Assembly: GCA_003159495.1 (NCBI GenBank)
Contig: PLPI01000141.1
Span: forward strand, 5,532 to 51,127
Direction of reading: 5' to 3'
DNA length: 45,596 nucleotides
Source of the DNA: a candidate division FCPU426 bacterium
Lineage (GTDB): Bacteria; Oederibacteriota; PGYV01; Palsa-1178
The first letter of the stretch is position 1, and the number at the start of each line of letters is the position of its first letter. This document shows positions 23,187 to 29,899 of this stretch, piece by piece. The notes below the pieces were generated by a model. The model saw only the letters and a program-made list of their open reading frames with translations, had not been told where the DNA came from and did no database searches. The translations under genes and the position numbers were made by a program.

Positions 23187-23723
23187 TTGAAACGCATTAC
23201 AGTACCGCTTGACAGCGAAACCATAGAGGACCTGGAAACCGGCGACGAGGTGATGATTTCCGGGGTAATATACACAATGCGCGACGCGGCCCACGCGAAA
23301 ATAACCGAAATGATAAAAAAACGGGCCAGGCTTCCCTTTGACCTTGCCAACCAGGTGATATATTACTGCGGCCCGACGCCGGCAAAACCGGGTAACATTA
23401 TAGGCTCATGCGGCCCCACCACATCCTCGCGCATGGATTCTTTTACTCCCCTGCTTCTTGAGCACGGCCTTAAGGGCATGATAGGAAAAGGCGAACGTTC
23501 CGCCGAGGTAAAAGACGCGATTCATAAATTCGGAGCGGTTTATTTTTCCGCGCTTGGCGGGCTTGGCGCTGATTACGCGCGCGATGTAAAAAAATCCGAG
23601 GTAATAGCCTTTCCCGAACTCGGGCCGGAGGCCATCTACAGGCTTGAAATCGAGGACTTTTTCGCCGTGGTCATTGACGACGCAAAAGGCAACGACCTTT
23701 ATATGCAGTTGTCTGTAAATTAA
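23187..23723 (+). CDS. class I fumarate hydratase, beta subunit
   Basis: A 178-residue C-terminal half of class I fumarase. Family motifs present include LETGDEVMISGVIYTMRDAAH, YYCGPTPAKPG, GSCGPTTSSRMD and the KGERS loop. The start is TTG (23187), supported by AAGGAG about 7 nt upstream. Last gene of the TCA operon, closed by the hairpin at 23722-23760. Confidence 0.93.
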   Translation: MKRITVPLDSETIEDLETGDEVMISGVIYTMRDAAHAKITEMIKKRARLPFDLANQVIYYCGPTPAKPGNIIGSCGPTTSSRMDSFTPLLLEHGLKGMIGKGERSAEVKDAIHKFGAVYFSALGGLGADYARDVKKSEVIAFPELGPEAIYRLEIEDFFAVVIDDAKGNDLYMQLSVN

Positions 23724-23760
23724 AAATGACGGCCGTGTTTATAACACGGCCGTCATTTTT
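23722..23760. terminator. strong bidirectional terminator
   Basis: Perfect stem of at least 14 bp (ATGACGGCCGTGTT / AACACGGCCGTCAT) with a TAT loop, flanked by A and T runs. It serves both the TCA operon on the plus strand and the OMP gene arriving on the minus strand. Confidence 0.92.
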
Positions 23761-23765
23761 TTTAT

Positions 23766-25103
23766 TTAAAAAGTTGCGGTCCCTTCGAGGTACATAAGGT
23801 CATTATCGCTGAATTCGCCGTAATAGCTGTTCTTTTTTCCGTCTATTATCCACACACCCGCCGTTATGGAATACGGCGCGCTGATTTTAAACGCGGCCTC
23901 TGCGCCCGCGGCAAAAGCATTGTCGTTTATGTTGTAAAGACAGCGCAGTTTGGGCGTTATCTTATCGTCGAAAAACGGGTAGTCTATGGTGGCCAGTATT
24001 GTATGCTCGGCCTCGTCCTGCTGAATATCCCCGGTATGATCCGCCATTATTTCACCGTTATATTCGGCGTTCATGTAAAGCTTCTCAACAAACAAGTTGG
24101 CGACATCAAAACCGGCTGTTACGTCCACCAGGTGTTTTTCAACGAATCCGTTCCCGCCTGTGACAAGGGAATATAAGAACGGGTTATCCGCCGGATTCGG
24201 GCTGTTCGTATCTTTCAAAGCAAAAGTTTTGCCCTTTATAAAATACCCGGCTTCTCCCCTGACCGATATTCCGGAAAAAAGGGCGCGCTGGAAATCCAGC
24301 CCGATCATCTGTATCTCCGGATAATACACCGTTGAGGCCACAGGCAGCAGGGGATTTGAAGTCAACTGTGACATAAAGGCCGGCTCATAGTCATAACCGT
24401 CATACCATATGGCATGGACGTCCGCGCCGAATAATTCGGCTCCGGCCCTTAACGCGTAATGAGGCTTCGCAAGATTGTTCATGTCCGGCTGTATTGAATT
24501 GGTAACATTAAGCTGTGCCGTTTCCGCGGAATCAATATTGAATATCCTTGAGTTTTCGACTTCATCCGGCTCAAATTCCTCTATTGTGACTCCCTCAAGG
24601 AATATATCCTGCGTAAAATAGACCGTTGCGTCAGCCGACCACACCCCGAGTTTTCTCTCTTCTATGGGTTTAAAAAGCAGAAAAGTATAATCCTGCGGGT
24701 TGAGTATATCCACGGGTTTTAATTCATCCGCGTTGCCCCACGTGTAAATGATCCTGCCCGCCCTGAAATTTATGCTGTCGATGCCTCCGCCAAAATTTAT
24801 ATCCTGGCTTATATAGCCTTCCCTTAAATAGACCGTTGCGTTTTCATCGGCGCTGTAAAACTTGCTCGTTGGATCGTTTAGTTTCAGCGTGTCCTCCTCC
24901 GCCCTTAAGTCCGCTTTTATCCGCGTATCTTCCATGGCCGCGGAATAGTTAAGGTCGAATCTTTCATCCCGCCTGTATGCGGCGTCGTTTTTTATATCCG
25001 CGGCGTAAAAAAAATCCATAGTACCGCTGAAGCTGCCGCCGTCAGCAAACGCCGCCGGGGCAATAACCGCCATTGCCATAATTAACAATGATAGTTTTTT
25101 CAT
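23766..25103 (-). CDS. outer-membrane beta-barrel protein (DUF1302-like) of the export cluster
   Basis: A 445-residue protein with a signal peptide (cleavage likely after AFA, about residue 20), alternating amphipathic strands throughout and a terminal Phe, the hallmark of outer-membrane barrels. A central motif, YTWGNADELKPVDILNPQDYT, resembles the WG-x-D-E-x-x-P-x-D-x-x-NP-x-D pattern of DUF1302-type proteins encoded beside MMPL exporters. It is the last gene of a cluster with a LolA-like protein and an MMPL exporter, 24 bp from the LolA-like gene. It could be the outer-membrane exit of that system; this is inference. Confidence 0.78.
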   Translation of the reverse strand: MKKLSLLIMAMAVIAPAAFADGGSFSGTMDFFYAADIKNDAAYRRDERFDLNYSAAMEDTRIKADLRAEEDTLKLNDPTSKFYSADENATVYLREGYISQDINFGGGIDSINFRAGRIIYTWGNADELKPVDILNPQDYTFLLFKPIEERKLGVWSADATVYFTQDIFLEGVTIEEFEPDEVENSRIFNIDSAETAQLNVTNSIQPDMNNLAKPHYALRAGAELFGADVHAIWYDGYDYEPAFMSQLTSNPLLPVASTVYYPEIQMIGLDFQRALFSGISVRGEAGYFIKGKTFALKDTNSPNPADNPFLYSLVTGGNGFVEKHLVDVTAGFDVANLFVEKLYMNAEYNGEIMADHTGDIQQDEAEHTILATIDYPFFDDKITPKLRCLYNINDNAFAAGAEAAFKISAPYSITAGVWIIDGKKNSYYGEFSDNDLMYLEGTATF

Positions 25104-25127: not shown

Positions 25128-25922
25128 TTATTCCTCGGGCCACTTCATATCCATTTTGTTTTTGTTAAAATTACCCTTATTAACCTGTTTTTCAGCCGCT
25201 TGTGTTACGGTTATTACAGAAGAATGTTTCTTGTCCACATCAACGACGGTTATACCGTACGGCACATATATGGAATCGGAAACTTTTTTAATGTTATCCA
25301 TTTTGATTGTTTTTACAAGCCTTCCTGTTTTGTCGAACGCCTTCACCATAACGGGTATAAACGATGTTTTGTCCACGAGCATCTGGTACTTTGAATATTT
25401 TGAAGACTTGTTCTTGGGCGCCTTTTCGAGAAAATAACAGTCCATATCGCCGATTTTTTTATCCGCAAGCCTCGTGTATGTGTAATCCGCGGTATTGCTT
25501 CCGCCCAGATCCTCATTTGAGAAATCAGTGTCCACAAAATTGTTTTCCCTGTCTGACGCCTCTATCTGCCTTGGTGAACCGACTGAAGCAAGATAAATAT
25601 ATGTTATTTTATCCCCGCCGTCCTTATCCAGTGTAAGAAACGTTGTGCCCCTGTAGCTTGAATCCGTGAACCTGAACGCGGCTTTTTTCAGCCCGTTTTC
25701 AGAGACGCTCTCCATGATACAGCCTCTTTTTTCAGCATCCTGCGAGGCAATGTTTTTTAATTCAAGGACCGCCTTTGTAACAAGCCCCTTTGAAGATACA
25801 TTTGACGCCTCGATTTTGTCGGCAATCTGCAGCCCGGTAAGGCCGTCATCCGCCGCGGACAGACGGACGGCGGGCAGAACAAAAAGAACTGATAAAGCAA
25901 ACGCGAAAATTTTCTTTTTCAT
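25128..25922 (-). CDS. LolA-like outer membrane lipoprotein-sorting protein
   Basis: A 264-residue periplasmic protein with a signal peptide cleaved near LSA (about 23). The N-terminal region (GLTGLQIADKIEASN) and internal strand pattern match the outer-membrane lipoprotein-sorting protein family (LolA-like fold), which typically pairs with MMPL/RND exporters and binds hydrophobic or acylated cargo. The start overlaps the MMPL stop by 4 bp (ATGA), so the two are translationally coupled. A role as periplasmic carrier between exporter and outer-membrane protein is inferred. Confidence 0.85.
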   Translation of the reverse strand: MKKKIFAFALSVLFVLPAVRLSAADDGLTGLQIADKIEASNVSSKGLVTKAVLELKNIASQDAEKRGCIMESVSENGLKKAAFRFTDSSYRGTTFLTLDKDGGDKITYIYLASVGSPRQIEASDRENNFVDTDFSNEDLGGSNTADYTYTRLADKKIGDMDCYFLEKAPKNKSSKYSKYQMLVDKTSFIPVMVKAFDKTGRLVKTIKMDNIKKVSDSIYVPYGITVVDVDKKHSSVITVTQAAEKQVNKGNFNKNKMDMKWPEE

Positions 25923-28444
25923 AATAGTGTTTTTCCTCCCTTTTCAAGGTATTTTAATGTGGCAGGTATCATTATTACGGCTCCTGCTCCTGTGGTCAAC
26001 ATGGTGAATCCGACCAGCCCCCCGAATTGTACAAGCGGGACAAAATTCGAGAACAGCAGCACAAAAAATCCGGCCATTACGGCGAGAACATTGTACATTA
26101 TCGATCTTCCCCTGTGCATTATGGTCCTGTATATGGCCTCTCCAACATCCTTTTTGTCTCCCATTGCGGCCATTTCCTGCCTGTACTTGACTATGAAATG
26201 GATTGAATAGTCAATTCCTGTGCCTATCGCGAGAGATGCCACGATAGCCGTTGCCGCGTTAAGCGGTATGCCGACAATCCCCATAAACCCGAAATCCATA
26301 AGAAGAGCAACGAATATCGGCCACAACGCCACAATTGTCAGCCCCGTGCTCCTGAAATCAAGCATCATTATTATAAATACCGCAATAAAAGATATGATTA
26401 TGTCCTCTATCTCGCCGTGCACTATCAGATTATTGGCAAGTATATACATGGCGCCTGTTCCGCTTACTGATATTTTGATATTATTTTGCCCGGCAAAATC
26501 CCGGAAATATTCCTCCGTGTATTTCTGTATCTTTTCGAGCGACATGGTATTTGTCCTGTTTATGACAATGTCATAAGAAGCGCCGTCATGTTTTGGCGTC
26601 ACAAAATTATCCAGCGCGCCGGAGTAGAGCATCAGGTAGTCGTCGGCTTTTCTTGCGCTTTCAGGCAGTATATAGTCTTCCTCTTTTCCGCCGGACATTT
26701 CCTGGTTCATTTTTTTGAGGTAGTCGTTTATGCCCATGACGCGTTTCACCCTGGGGAACTTTTCCATTACATCTTTTTTATACGAGTCAACCTTTGCGAG
26801 TATTTCGGGGCGCAAAACCGAGGATCCGTCTTTTGACTCTATTACGAGGTCCATCTCCTGTGTTCCGTCAAATATACGGTTCATTCTGTCGTCATCCATG
26901 CGCACCGGCGCGTTCTTTTTAAAAAATTCCGCGTTATTCATCTCAACCTTCAGCATCGATATTCCCGCGACCGAAACAACGCAGATTATCAGGGAAATCA
27001 CCAGGAGCATATTGTAATTATACTGAACCATGTGATTGAACCACTTTAAAAACTTTAGTATTATCCCGCCCTGTTCCTCCTCGTCCGGGAAATTTACCTT
27101 CGGCCTCTTTATCTCAAGCAGCATTGACGGAAGAAGGTACATTACTATCACAAGGGCAAAAAATATCCCTATGCCTGTAAACAACCCGAAATTCCTCAGC
27201 GGCATGAATTTCGTGGACAGCAGGGCCAGAAAACCCGCCATTGCCGTCAGCGCCCCCGTAAATATCCCGACTCCGACGGTCGTGATATTCTTTTTAATGC
27301 TGTCCAGTTTGCCGGCTCCGTGTATAAGGAAATAATTGTTCATAAAGTGGATCCCGTATGCGCTTCCAAGGGCGGTCAGCACCACAGGCAAAATCGAACT
27401 TACGATATTCACCGGGATTCCGCAGTAGCCCATCAGCCCGTAGGTCCATACCACGCATACGGCAAGCCCGGTCATCGGATAAAATACGCCCTGAAAATTT
27501 TTAAATGACAAAAACAGCACAAGCGACACGGTAATGAGAACCAGCGGCATCAGGAAAGATATGTCATGCAGTATCGATTCCGTCATAAAATACGATATTA
27601 CAGGCTCCCCGGCAATACTCACTTTTATATCAGCGGGTTTGCCGGCGGCGGTTATTTTCTTTAATTCCCTGTAAACCGCGCTTCTTGTGTCAACGTCTTT
27701 TGACGACAGTTGAATAAGCAGCGAAGTAGATGTGTTGTCCCTTGAAACCAGCAGCCCTTTGTACATATCCCATGAATCAACCCTTTTTTTGACTTCCCCG
27801 ATATTTTTCGGATTTATAACTCCGTCATCCAGCAGTTTCATTACGCTGAATTTATTGCCCGTGCCTTTTATAAAATCGGAAGTGATTATGCTGTCCACTT
27901 TCTTCACCGGCGGGTGGTATGCGTCATATATGTTGGTAAAATTTGCACCCCTGCATGCTGAAACAATCTTATCGGCAAATTTAGCGTCCAGAAAAGCCTC
28001 GCCTGTCAGCCTTTCTTTGTTTGTAAGCAGGGCCTTTACATCATCCGGCCCCATTATAACCTGTTCATTGAGGGCGTTGACAAGTTCCCGACCCTCCCCG
28101 GCTGTAAGCCTGAGTTTTTTCGCGATATTTTCCGCCGGCATTGTTTTATTTATGTCAAGCACCGCGTTCTGGAGGTTTTTAACGTAATTAAAGACCTCCT
28201 CTTTGTAAATATTGTCCGACTCGACAGCGACAAATATAAGGTTCTTGTTGCCGAATATATCCTCGAACCTGTCGTAATTTTTTACCACAATATTATCCTT
28301 CGGCAGCATATTATGTATGTCGTTGTCAATCTGCAGCATGAAAATACCGGGAATAAAAGCCAGCGTTATTATTACAGCCGCCGCGATTACCATCCATGGT
28401 TTTTTAAATATTTCCAGCGTCTTTTCGAGCAATTTTTCAATCAT
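25919..28444 (-). CDS. MMPL/RND-superfamily exporter
   Basis: An 841-residue inner-membrane transporter. One N-terminal helix (about 17-35) is followed by a large periplasmic loop, five or six helices, a second helix (about 475-495), a second periplasmic loop and a closing bundle: the internally duplicated 12-TM RND layout. It belongs to the MMPL/SSD branch, as seen from ALGSAYGIHFMNNY and IGTGIDYSIHFIVKYR, the paired motifs with Gly/Asp in TM4 and TM10. These export lipids or hydrophobic molecules by proton motive force (family knowledge). GGAGA precedes the ATG. A candidate TetR operator (28466-28488) lies 22 bp upstream, and the LolA-like gene overlaps its stop. Confidence 0.92.
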   Translation of the reverse strand: MIEKLLEKTLEIFKKPWMVIAAAVIITLAFIPGIFMLQIDNDIHNMLPKDNIVVKNYDRFEDIFGNKNLIFVAVESDNIYKEEVFNYVKNLQNAVLDINKTMPAENIAKKLRLTAGEGRELVNALNEQVIMGPDDVKALLTNKERLTGEAFLDAKFADKIVSACRGANFTNIYDAYHPPVKKVDSIITSDFIKGTGNKFSVMKLLDDGVINPKNIGEVKKRVDSWDMYKGLLVSRDNTSTSLLIQLSSKDVDTRSAVYRELKKITAAGKPADIKVSIAGEPVISYFMTESILHDISFLMPLVLITVSLVLFLSFKNFQGVFYPMTGLAVCVVWTYGLMGYCGIPVNIVSSILPVVLTALGSAYGIHFMNNYFLIHGAGKLDSIKKNITTVGVGIFTGALTAMAGFLALLSTKFMPLRNFGLFTGIGIFFALVIVMYLLPSMLLEIKRPKVNFPDEEEQGGIILKFLKWFNHMVQYNYNMLLVISLIICVVSVAGISMLKVEMNNAEFFKKNAPVRMDDDRMNRIFDGTQEMDLVIESKDGSSVLRPEILAKVDSYKKDVMEKFPRVKRVMGINDYLKKMNQEMSGGKEEDYILPESARKADDYLMLYSGALDNFVTPKHDGASYDIVINRTNTMSLEKIQKYTEEYFRDFAGQNNIKISVSGTGAMYILANNLIVHGEIEDIIISFIAVFIIMMLDFRSTGLTIVALWPIFVALLMDFGFMGIVGIPLNAATAIVASLAIGTGIDYSIHFIVKYRQEMAAMGDKKDVGEAIYRTIMHRGRSIMYNVLAVMAGFFVLLFSNFVPLVQFGGLVGFTMLTTGAGAVIMIPATLKYLEKGGKTLL

Positions 28445-28465
28445 AATCTCTCCTTTTAGGTTTTT

Positions 28466-28488
28466 CGACTTTTTTAGTTTTTTGGTCG
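28466..28488 (-). promoter_or_regulatory. candidate TetR operator, site 1 (MMPL exporter)
   Basis: CGAC-N15-GTCG palindrome, 23 bp, whose inner edge is 22 bp from the MMPL start. It matches the half-site CGACYA found at sites 2 and 3 on one side and is degenerate on the other. No clear -35/-10 surrounds it. Confidence 0.5.
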
Positions 28489-28506
28489 TTTCCGGGACAA
28501 AAAAAA

Positions 28507-29076
28507 TTATCTTTTAAGCATCCCGTTAAAAAGCACTTTAAGCATGGCCCCGGTCTTTTTCTCCGCCGCGCCTTCCTCGTCAAGCGCCCAGGAATATTCC
28601 ATGCCCTTCATTGCGGTTACAAGCGTAAACGCCGTAAGCACCGGATCCTCAACGCTGAATATTCCGGCTGCTATGCCTTCCTTAATAATATCGGCTATCC
28701 GCGTTATCTCAAAATCATTATATTTTTCATGTACTTTGTTTACAAAACCGTAATATTCGATGTAATCTTCCCTGAATGTGGAGTAAAAGTTTGCGAATTT
28801 TCCAATTAATTTCATACGGGTTACAATATAGGCCTTTAATTTTTCATCCGCCCCTGCCGCAGACTCCACCGCCGATGTAATGCCGCCTTTTAAGGCCCTG
28901 ACTTCGCTGTTGACCACATCAAGAAATATCTCTTCCTTGGAAACATAATAATGATAGATGGTCCCTTTTCCTATCCTGGCCTCTTTTGCGATCTCGTCAA
29001 CCGTTGTCTTGCGCAGGCCGAATTTGGAAAAGAGCCTCTTTGCCACTTCAACTATTATTTTTTTCGTTTCCTTCAC
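28507..29076 (-). CDS. TetR/AcrR family regulator (1)
   Basis: A 189-residue DNA-binding repressor. The N-terminal helix-turn-helix is typical: FSKFGLRKTTVDEIAKEARIGKGTIYHYYVSKEEIF (about 17-52). The C-terminal ligand domain is variable. It is a clear paralogue of TetR regulator 2, encoded directly upstream, with near-identical recognition helices (IGKGTIYHY), so the pair should read similar operators. Located 62 bp upstream of the MMPL operon on the same strand, with its own promoter overlapping operator site 2. Probably represses itself and the exporter; inducer unknown. Confidence 0.92.
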   Translation of the reverse strand: MKETKKIIVEVAKRLFSKFGLRKTTVDEIAKEARIGKGTIYHYYVSKEEIFLDVVNSEVRALKGGITSAVESAAGADEKLKAYIVTRMKLIGKFANFYSTFREDYIEYYGFVNKVHEKYNDFEITRIADIIKEGIAAGIFSVEDPVLTAFTLVTAMKGMEYSWALDEEGAAEKKTGAMLKVLFNGMLKR

Positions 29077-29097
29077 ATTTCACCTTTTTGTACTTAT

Positions 29098-29140
29098 CGA
29101 CTATTTTTGTATTATAGTCGGTTTTTCCCATTTTTGTCAA
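29098..29140 (-). promoter_or_regulatory. promoter of TetR 1 with operator site 2 over the -10
   Basis: TTGACA (29135-29140), 18-bp spacer and TATAAT (29111-29116) on the minus strand. A 23-bp palindrome with perfect 7-bp arms, CGACTAT / ATAGTCG (29098-29120), covers the -10. Its edge is 22 bp from the TetR 1 start, the same distance as site 1 from MMPL. Confidence 0.75.
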
Positions 29141-29143
29141 GTA

Positions 29144-29713
29144 TTATCTTTTTCTTATTCCGTTTAAAACTATATTTAGAATCAGGCCGACCTTTTTTTC
29201 TATTTCTTCGGCTTTATCAATTCCCATCTGGTATTCCACGCCGAGAATGGACTGGACTATCACGAACGCGGTGTAGTCGGCGTCTTCAATCGCGAACATA
29301 CCGCGGCTTGCTCCTTCGTCCAGGAAACTTTTCATCATGGAAGTCTCGAATGCCCTGTATTTTTCATAAACTTTTTTTATGTACCCGTAATAATCCAAAT
29401 AATCGGTCTTAAACATTATGTAGAACCCCGACAGTTTTCCCATAAGTTTCAGCCTGGCGTGGATATAAGCCGCAATTTTTTTATCCGGCTCGGTCTCGAG
29501 CGAAACCACTTTTTCCAGTTCGGCCTTAGCCTCGGCAAAATCAATGTCGAGTATCACGCAGTAAAGCTCTTCTTTTGAGTCAAAGTAATGGTATATGGTC
29601 CCCTTTCCTATTTTTGCCTCTTTTGCGATATCGTCCATAGTCGTTTCAGTTACCCCTTTTTTGGCGAACATTTTCCTCGCCGTCCTTATTACAAGCTCTC
29701 TTGTCTCCTTCAT
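29144..29713 (-). CDS. TetR/AcrR family regulator (2)
   Basis: A 189-residue repressor, a paralogue of TetR 1 and of equal length. The HTH is FAKKGVTETTMDDIAKEAKIGKGTIYHYFDSKEELY. The ATG at 29713, preceded by AAGGAG at about 7 nt, is preferred over an upstream in-frame ATG at 29746, which would place coding sequence in the operator. First gene of the regulator/exporter cluster, divergent from aconitase with a 186-bp gap. Likely the autoregulated partner in a two-repressor circuit. Confidence 0.92.
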   Translation of the reverse strand: MKETRELVIRTARKMFAKKGVTETTMDDIAKEAKIGKGTIYHYFDSKEELYCVILDIDFAEAKAELEKVVSLETEPDKKIAAYIHARLKLMGKLSGFYIMFKTDYLDYYGYIKKVYEKYRAFETSMMKSFLDEGASRGMFAIEDADYTAFVIVQSILGVEYQMGIDKAEEIEKKVGLILNIVLNGIRKR

Positions 29714-29738
29714 TCCAGTCTCCTTGCCGTTTTTTTGT

Positions 29739-29782
29739 CCGACCAATTTTAAAATTTTAGTCGGTTAACCTGTTTTAGTCAA
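29739..29782 (-). promoter_or_regulatory. promoter of TetR 2 with operator site 3 over the -10
   Basis: TTGACT (29777-29782), 17-bp spacer and TAAAAT (29754-29759) on the minus strand. The imperfect palindrome CCGAC...GTCGG (29739-29764) covers the -10. The string ACCGACTA at the -10 edge is identical to that at the TetR 1 promoter. Confidence 0.65.
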
Positions 29783-29820
29783 GAAGTAATTTTCATGCGC
29801 ATACGGAGCGTGTGCCGGTA

Positions 29821-29843
29821 AAAAAGTATTTACTTTTTATAAT
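29821..29843 (+). promoter_or_regulatory. palindrome and -10 box upstream of aconitase
   Basis: AAAAAGTA / TACTTTTT palindrome with a 2-bp centre (29821-29838), running into a perfect TATAAT (29838-29843). No good -35 is seen, as expected of an activator- or repressor-controlled promoter. Confidence 0.4.
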
Positions 29844-29899
29844 TGTTGCCTTAATATTATAAGGTCAAAAATACATACTCAGCTTAAAGGAGAACAGCC

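Follow-up and report, generated by a model that had tools for sequence, protein, structure and literature searches.

A tetR gene flanked by two copies of a predicted operator ahead of an MMPL exporter operon in a candidate division FCPU426 bacterium

In the 3.05-Mb genome of a candidate division FCPU426 bacterium (assembly GCA_003159495.1), two tandem tetR paralogues stand before an exporter operon, and three related palindromes lie among these genes. The question raised by this locus is which repressor acts at which palindrome, and what is controlled in this way. The window, i.e., the whole stretch of DNA that was analyzed, comprises 45,596 nucleotides of contig PLPI01000141.1; its gene order on the minus strand is tetR2 - tetR1 - MMPL - LolA_like - DUF1302, with a convergent fumarase gene. 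The answer regarded here as likely, on the basis of sequence comparison, is that TetR1 represses its own gene via site 2 and the MMPL-LolA_like-DUF1302 operon via site 1, and that site 3 belongs to TetR2. One and the same operator stands on either side of the tetR1 gene, a layout that was not mentioned in the preliminary description of this DNA. The list below gives the repressor genes, the palindromes and the promoters of both tetR genes.

28466..28488, minus strand: site 1, CGACTTTTTTAGTTTTTTGGTCG, as operator CGACCAAAAAACTAAAAAAGTCG; 23 bp, before the MMPL gene, of the second-site type, 18 bp past the tetR1 stop codon
29098..29120, minus strand: site 2, CGACTATTTTTGTATTATAGTCG, as operator CGACTATAATACAAAAATAGTCG; 23 bp, over the tetR1 -10, also 23 bp past the tetR2 stop codon
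29740..29763, minus strand: site 3, CGACCAATTTTAAAATTTTAGTCG, as operator CGACTAAAATTTTAAAATTGGTCG; 24 bp, over the tetR2 -10, of the TetR2 type, lacking the inner RAC
28507..29076, minus strand: TetR1, 189 amino acids, GTG start, PF00440 TetR_N at E 1.6e-16; relatives have the same operator
29144..29713, minus strand: TetR2, 189 amino acids, ATG start, PF00440 at E 9e-18; predicted repressor of the fumarase-aconitase locus
29111..29140, minus strand: tetR1 promoter TTGACA-18-TATAAT, 12/12 consensus, with the -10 within site 2
29754..29782, minus strand: tetR2 promoter TTGACT-17-TAAAAT, 10/12 consensus, with the -10 within site 3

The coordinates of the palindromes given in the preliminary description were found to be correct on re-reading of the sequence, as were the distances of 22, 22 and 27 bp from their inner edges to the starts of MMPL (28444), TetR1 (29076) and TetR2 (29713). 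The half-site CGACYA is present in five of the six halves, the exception being CGACTT in site 1, and the identical string reported for the two tetR sites (ACCGACTA / AACCGACTA) is indeed common to sites 2 and 3. That a palindrome covers the -10 of a good promoter at both tetR genes was likewise borne out by the consensus scores listed above. Sites 2 and 3, which lie over -10 hexamers and are conserved in relatives, have the form of palindromic operators overlapping regulated promoters. Both proteins belong to the TetR family, with 60.2 and 64.2 bits to the TetR_N profile PF00440 (cut-off 24). They are 42% identical over 189 of 189 residues, and the alignment confirmed that they have the helix IGKGTIYHY in common.

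That the palindromes arose by chance in AT-rich intergenic DNA is hardly credible. The pattern CGACYA-N11/12-TRGTCG matches only sites 2 and 3 in the genome, a count that proves little, since the pattern was derived from the sites themselves and the reversed control pattern matches equally often. Looser half-site patterns match three other places in the genome, reversed as frequently as forward, which would favor chance. Such counts were therefore not taken by themselves as proof; the genome scans combined patterns with a sequence-only model. Relatives of TetR1 and TetR2 were taken from sister genomes and from the genome contig collection, and the region upstream of each tetR was extracted. 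A 27-bp matrix was trained on 78 relatives' sites, leaving out the window and its family's TetR2 orthologues and including one site (L152) of a more distant TetR of the sister genome G001. Within the window it gives 20.6 bits for site 1 and 19.9 bits for site 2, with a third match at 12.6; the maxima in 150 simulated windows have a median of 11.6 bits and a largest value of 18.8 bits. The sequence-only model, built from 57 relatives' sites of which none is from the window's family, ranks site 1 first (E 0.0023) and site 2 second (E 0.0047) in the whole genome, followed by a match at E 0.45. The scores of sites 1 and 2 lie far beyond what chance would give, and as the motif has no further convincing match, the regulon is local in this genome. 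Site 3 was recovered neither by the matrix scan of the window nor by the whole-genome model; it is supported by related sites at orthologous tetR2 genes. Absence of the palindromes from orthologous loci, which the preliminary description had named as a finding that would speak against it, was checked. Operators are present in both orthologous and family loci, and this conservation also argues against chance.

The family operator is 23 bp long and reads roughly CGAMYannRRACnAAwnTRGTCG (CGAMY at 1-5, RAC at 10-12, TRGTCG at 18-23), with a T before and an A after it. In relatives of TetR1 the first site mostly lies 30-60 bp before tetR, and the orientation of the inner half-site follows that of the gene in nearly all members (exceptions L107, L108 and L125). 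Three half-sites are conserved, GAC at 2-4, RAC at 10-12 and GTC at 20-22. GAC 10-12 and GTC 20-22 have a center-to-center distance of 10 bp, which fits a TetR dimer; a third contact of TetR on its operator is predicted at the outer GAC, positions 2-4. The best-matching well-studied protein of solved structure is QacR of Staphylococcus (full-length alignment, E about 1e-13), which binds its long operator as a pair of dimers (PMC4486848). QacR differs from the window's repressors in operator sequence and length and has low sequence similarity; from the three half-sites we infer that two dimers may bind at the window sites too, so that the number of TetR1 dimers per operator is read by analogy.

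Variants of the operator were observed elsewhere. At some Aminicenantes loci (L081, L082, L084, L085, L088, L112) the first sites are 31 bp long and have GTC at 28-30 as a fourth half-site, as in CGACTATAAAACAAATGTAGTCAATCAGTCG. A Bacteroidales branch (L113-L142) carries TTCGAAT-TAT-CGACC-AATTT-ATTCGAA, a composite variant of the site, some 95 bp upstream of tetR; its neighbor genes are different, and it has no second site past tetR. Another TetR of the source genome (L037, about 1290-1437, contig C99 of G000) has at its promoter TTGACTGATCAGTCAA together with more repeats of the form TTGACT...GGTCAA, an operator of a different type.

The bracketed layout recurs. A second operator copy of the same orientation stands just past the tetR stop codon in 33 of 88 loci (at least 15 bits), mostly at stop+16 to stop+26, and the same test found no second copy in five control windows of 60 bp (83 to 90 loci each). 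At the 33 second sites T is conserved at 85-100% per position from -16 to -11; it is not conserved there at first sites. Site 1 of the window matches this second-site class both in its distance from the tetR1 stop and in the tract ahead of it.

28499..28506, minus strand: T8 tract of site 1, at -18 to -11, matching in register the tract found at the second sites of relatives
28471..28500, minus strand: weak promoter-like sequence of the exporter operon, TTGTCC (28500-28495), 18 bp and TAAAAA (28476-28471) within site 1; putative, as read from the sequence

A palindrome of fixed orientation relative to transcription, with an asymmetric inner AAAAC and a U-tract before the second sites, might also act in the transcript, as a hairpin or as a pseudoknot with the U-tract. 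This is very improbable. The second-site pairs 4-20 and 5-19 form in 52% and 70% of cases, compared with 49% and 71% expected from independent columns, no Rfam family matches the sites, and the first sites overlap promoters, so that they would be only partly transcribed. The RNA reading was rejected on the pairing level and the Rfam result, and together with the promoter overlap these observations indicate that the sites act as duplex DNA.

A role of site 1 as an auxiliary operator without a promoter of its own is unlikely. Transcription of the exporter would then come by read-through from the tetR1 promoter, and repressor bound at both site 1 and site 2 would block elongation or loop the DNA between them. 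The weak promoter in site 1 would agree with this, and the T-tract and the A-run of the operator could be phased bends. The paired sites are 632 bp apart in the window and 632-678 bp apart in 29 loci, a narrow range that mostly reflects the length of the tetR gene. Against a roadblock or loop, the -10-like hexamers within relatives' second sites peak at one offset (13 of 46), the same as that of TAAAAA at operator positions 13-18 of site 1, which suggests a promoter.

A second, more distant TetR of G001 is also bracketed, by TGACCAAAATATAAAAATGGTCA before tetR and TGACCAAAACATATTTTTGGTCA after it. These TGACCA...TGGTCA sites (L152, 6956-6978 and 7602-7624) stand before a glycosyltransferase gene; the layout is the same and the outer base is different.

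Site 3 is the predicted operator of TetR2, the product of a resident gene. The TetR2 orthologues of the sister genomes G001, G002 and G003 adjoin a fumarase subunit gene, in G003 with a gene for a TPR protein in between. In G001 and G002 the tetR2 orthologue is divergent from aconitase; in G003 the contig breaks off immediately upstream of tetR. In the window, the tetR1-exporter cassette sits between fumarase and tetR2. In the tree TetR2 groups with its resident orthologues at 100/99 and TetR1 falls outside, with a long branch separating the two. TetR1 is therefore not a recent copy of TetR2, and a recent tandem duplication was rejected. The cassette was either gained in the window's lineage or lost in the others. 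The MMPL protein had no match in G001-G003 at the threshold used and only about 30% identity elsewhere, which makes it unfit as an orthologue probe.

The preliminary description had explained the locus as a double-repressor circuit, in which all three sites are bound by TetR1 as well as by TetR2 and the two proteins together control both tetR genes and the exporter. This reading is supported in part. Its operators at the two tetR genes and the exporter gene stood, being conserved in orthologous and family loci; cross-regulation by both repressors would be a reasonable extension. Sites 1 and 2 have the inner RAC and the 23-bp spacing of the TetR1-like family. Site 3 has neither; its 24-bp spacing is that of the G001 site. 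L151, from a sister genus, has a similar site of 24 bp, and L149 and L150 have sites of 23 bp. That the outer half-sites agree among the three sites and that the IGKGTIYHY helix is identical would speak for joint control, but this helix is near-generic in the TetR family studied, the paralogues are only 42% identical across a long branch, and the motif model misses site 3. The own-promoter sites of the TetR2 orthologues in G002 and G003 are 23 bp long, lack the RAC, are identical to site 2 at 20 of 23 positions and have a similar layout of TTGACT plus site. Because of this identity cross-binding of TetR1 and TetR2 is plausible, and TetR2 may read site 2 as well. The observations fit two related specificities with possible overlap, and a full double-repressor circuit is considered the less probable outcome. 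A further match of the motif in G003 (L163) was dropped, because it falls within apparent coding sequence and not at a promoter.

Other features were seen around tetR2. In G003 a gene for a TPR protein with a signal-peptide-like sequence directly follows the tetR2 orthologue (L150, 5809-6612) and does not occupy this position in the other sister genomes. In the window, tetR2 and aconitase are divergent (29714-29899), as they are in G001 and G002. Site 3 precedes the aconitase start by about 136 bp, and a link of TetR2 to tricarboxylic acid cycle genes is conceivable.

The operon downstream of site 1 is composed as follows.

25919..28444, minus strand: MMPL/HAE3-like RND exporter, 841 amino acids, PF03176 at E 4.6e-32, TIGR00921 at 271.9 bits
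25128..25922, minus strand: LolA_like periplasmic carrier, 264 amino acids, PF17131 at E 2.8e-40 and 138.4 bits, DUF1329 at 23.5 bits (cut-off 23.1)
23766..25103, minus strand: DUF1302 protein, probably an outer-membrane beta-barrel, 445 amino acids, PF06980 at E 1.7e-10 and 41 bits (cut-off 23.2)
23722..23760, no strand assigned: terminator-like perfect hairpin at the operon end, an 18-pair stem with T-runs, common to the convergent fumarase gene

The MMPL and LolA_like genes overlap by four bases, and the hairpin between the convergent fumarase and DUF1302 genes is probably a two-way terminator. The order tetR-MMPL-LolA-DUF1302 recurs in several phyla (L074, L075, L098, L124, L147, L154). 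A tetR-MMPL operon whose second site is weak occurs in the culturable relative Prolixibacter denitrificans (L145). Genes beside other members of the TetR group encode patatin, KAS III, acyltransferase, polyketide-cyclase/START-like lipid transfer, OEP, GtrA, ABC1-kinase and radical SAM proteins, and this neighborhood suggests a connection with envelope lipids. The most likely reading is that the ligand is hydrophobic or acyl and the cargo lipid-like.

By composition, the closest characterized system is AmeABCD of Castellaniella defragrans, a monoterpene exporter of the HAE3 RND type, which likewise joins an HAE3-like RND protein, a DUF1302 outer-membrane protein and a LolA-superfamily/DUF1329 periplasmic protein in one cassette (PMC6394551). 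The latter two components are represented in the window by the PF06980 and PF17131 matches. The differences are that the window's MMPL protein stays below the TIGR00921 cut-off (271.9 versus 351.9 bits) and that the window has no AmeC-like COG4447 gene, its MMPL, LolA_like and DUF1302 genes being contiguous. The hopanoid transporter HpnN is also an MMPL/HAE3-type RND protein; the partial match of the window's protein to TIGR03480 (141.3 bits) is far below the cut-off of 751.85. By description, HpnN works without dedicated periplasmic or outer-membrane partners (PMC6394551).

With TetR repressors that regulate both themselves and an adjacent exporter, the locus has in common the TetR_N domain, a palindrome over the repressor's own promoter and an exporter operon downstream in the same direction. 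It differs from them in the two same-orientation operators bracketing tetR, in the 23-bp operator with three half-sites and in the two tandem tetR paralogues. TetR1 would be an autoregulated repressor whose gene lies between two copies of its operator. Either site would be occupied by one dimer or, as in QacR, by two side by side, covering the tetR1 -10 at site 2 and, at site 1, the region where the MMPL-LolA_like-DUF1302 operon starts. TetR1 would be released by a hydrophobic or acyl compound, probably the cargo of the exporter or its precursor, and this release would provide export on demand with feedback. TetR2, the resident repressor adjoining the tetR1-exporter cassette, would act at site 3. 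The pairing of proteins with sites, the direction of control, the ligand and the cargo are predictions from sequence; the sites, their positions and conservation and the local extent of the regulon are direct observations.

Autoregulation by TetR1 with local control of the exporter is a well-supported prediction, against which several points have to be set. Sites 1 and 2 were assigned to TetR1 by motif type and position. With its weak promoter in site 1 (TTGTCC/TAAAAA), the exporter may rely for the most part on transcription that starts at the tetR1 promoter and reads through. The second site is missing at many family loci, in the Bacteroidales group almost wholly. The matrix was fitted on the best hit within 140 bp, and some first sites may therefore be spurious; many of the relatives in the matrix and in the counts are close kin.

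Control of an exporter by a TetR protein is of a known kind; the new part is the bracketed layout with three half-sites across phyla. No description of the motif or of this layout was found in the literature searched, which was covered in part. It is tentatively proposed, with somewhat less than even confidence, that a widespread module is represented here, found in Aminicenantes, Cloacimonadota, Neomarinimicrobia, Ignavibacteria, UBP11 and others. In this module a tetR gene bracketed by two same-orientation 23-bp operators of three half-sites, the second locked to a T-tract past the tetR stop codon, would control envelope-lipid synthesis and export. The composite site would be read by more than one dimer, and the T-tract would be a working part of the second operator-promoter. 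With the motif, the regulon of an undescribed TetR group, linked to genes of lipid synthesis, transfer and export, can be sought at the sequence level in phyla known mainly from metagenomes. The fixed bracketed layout and the register-locked T-tract raise the question why two operator copies surround the repressor gene, and the locus provides a clean test of how tandem TetR paralogues split or share operators.

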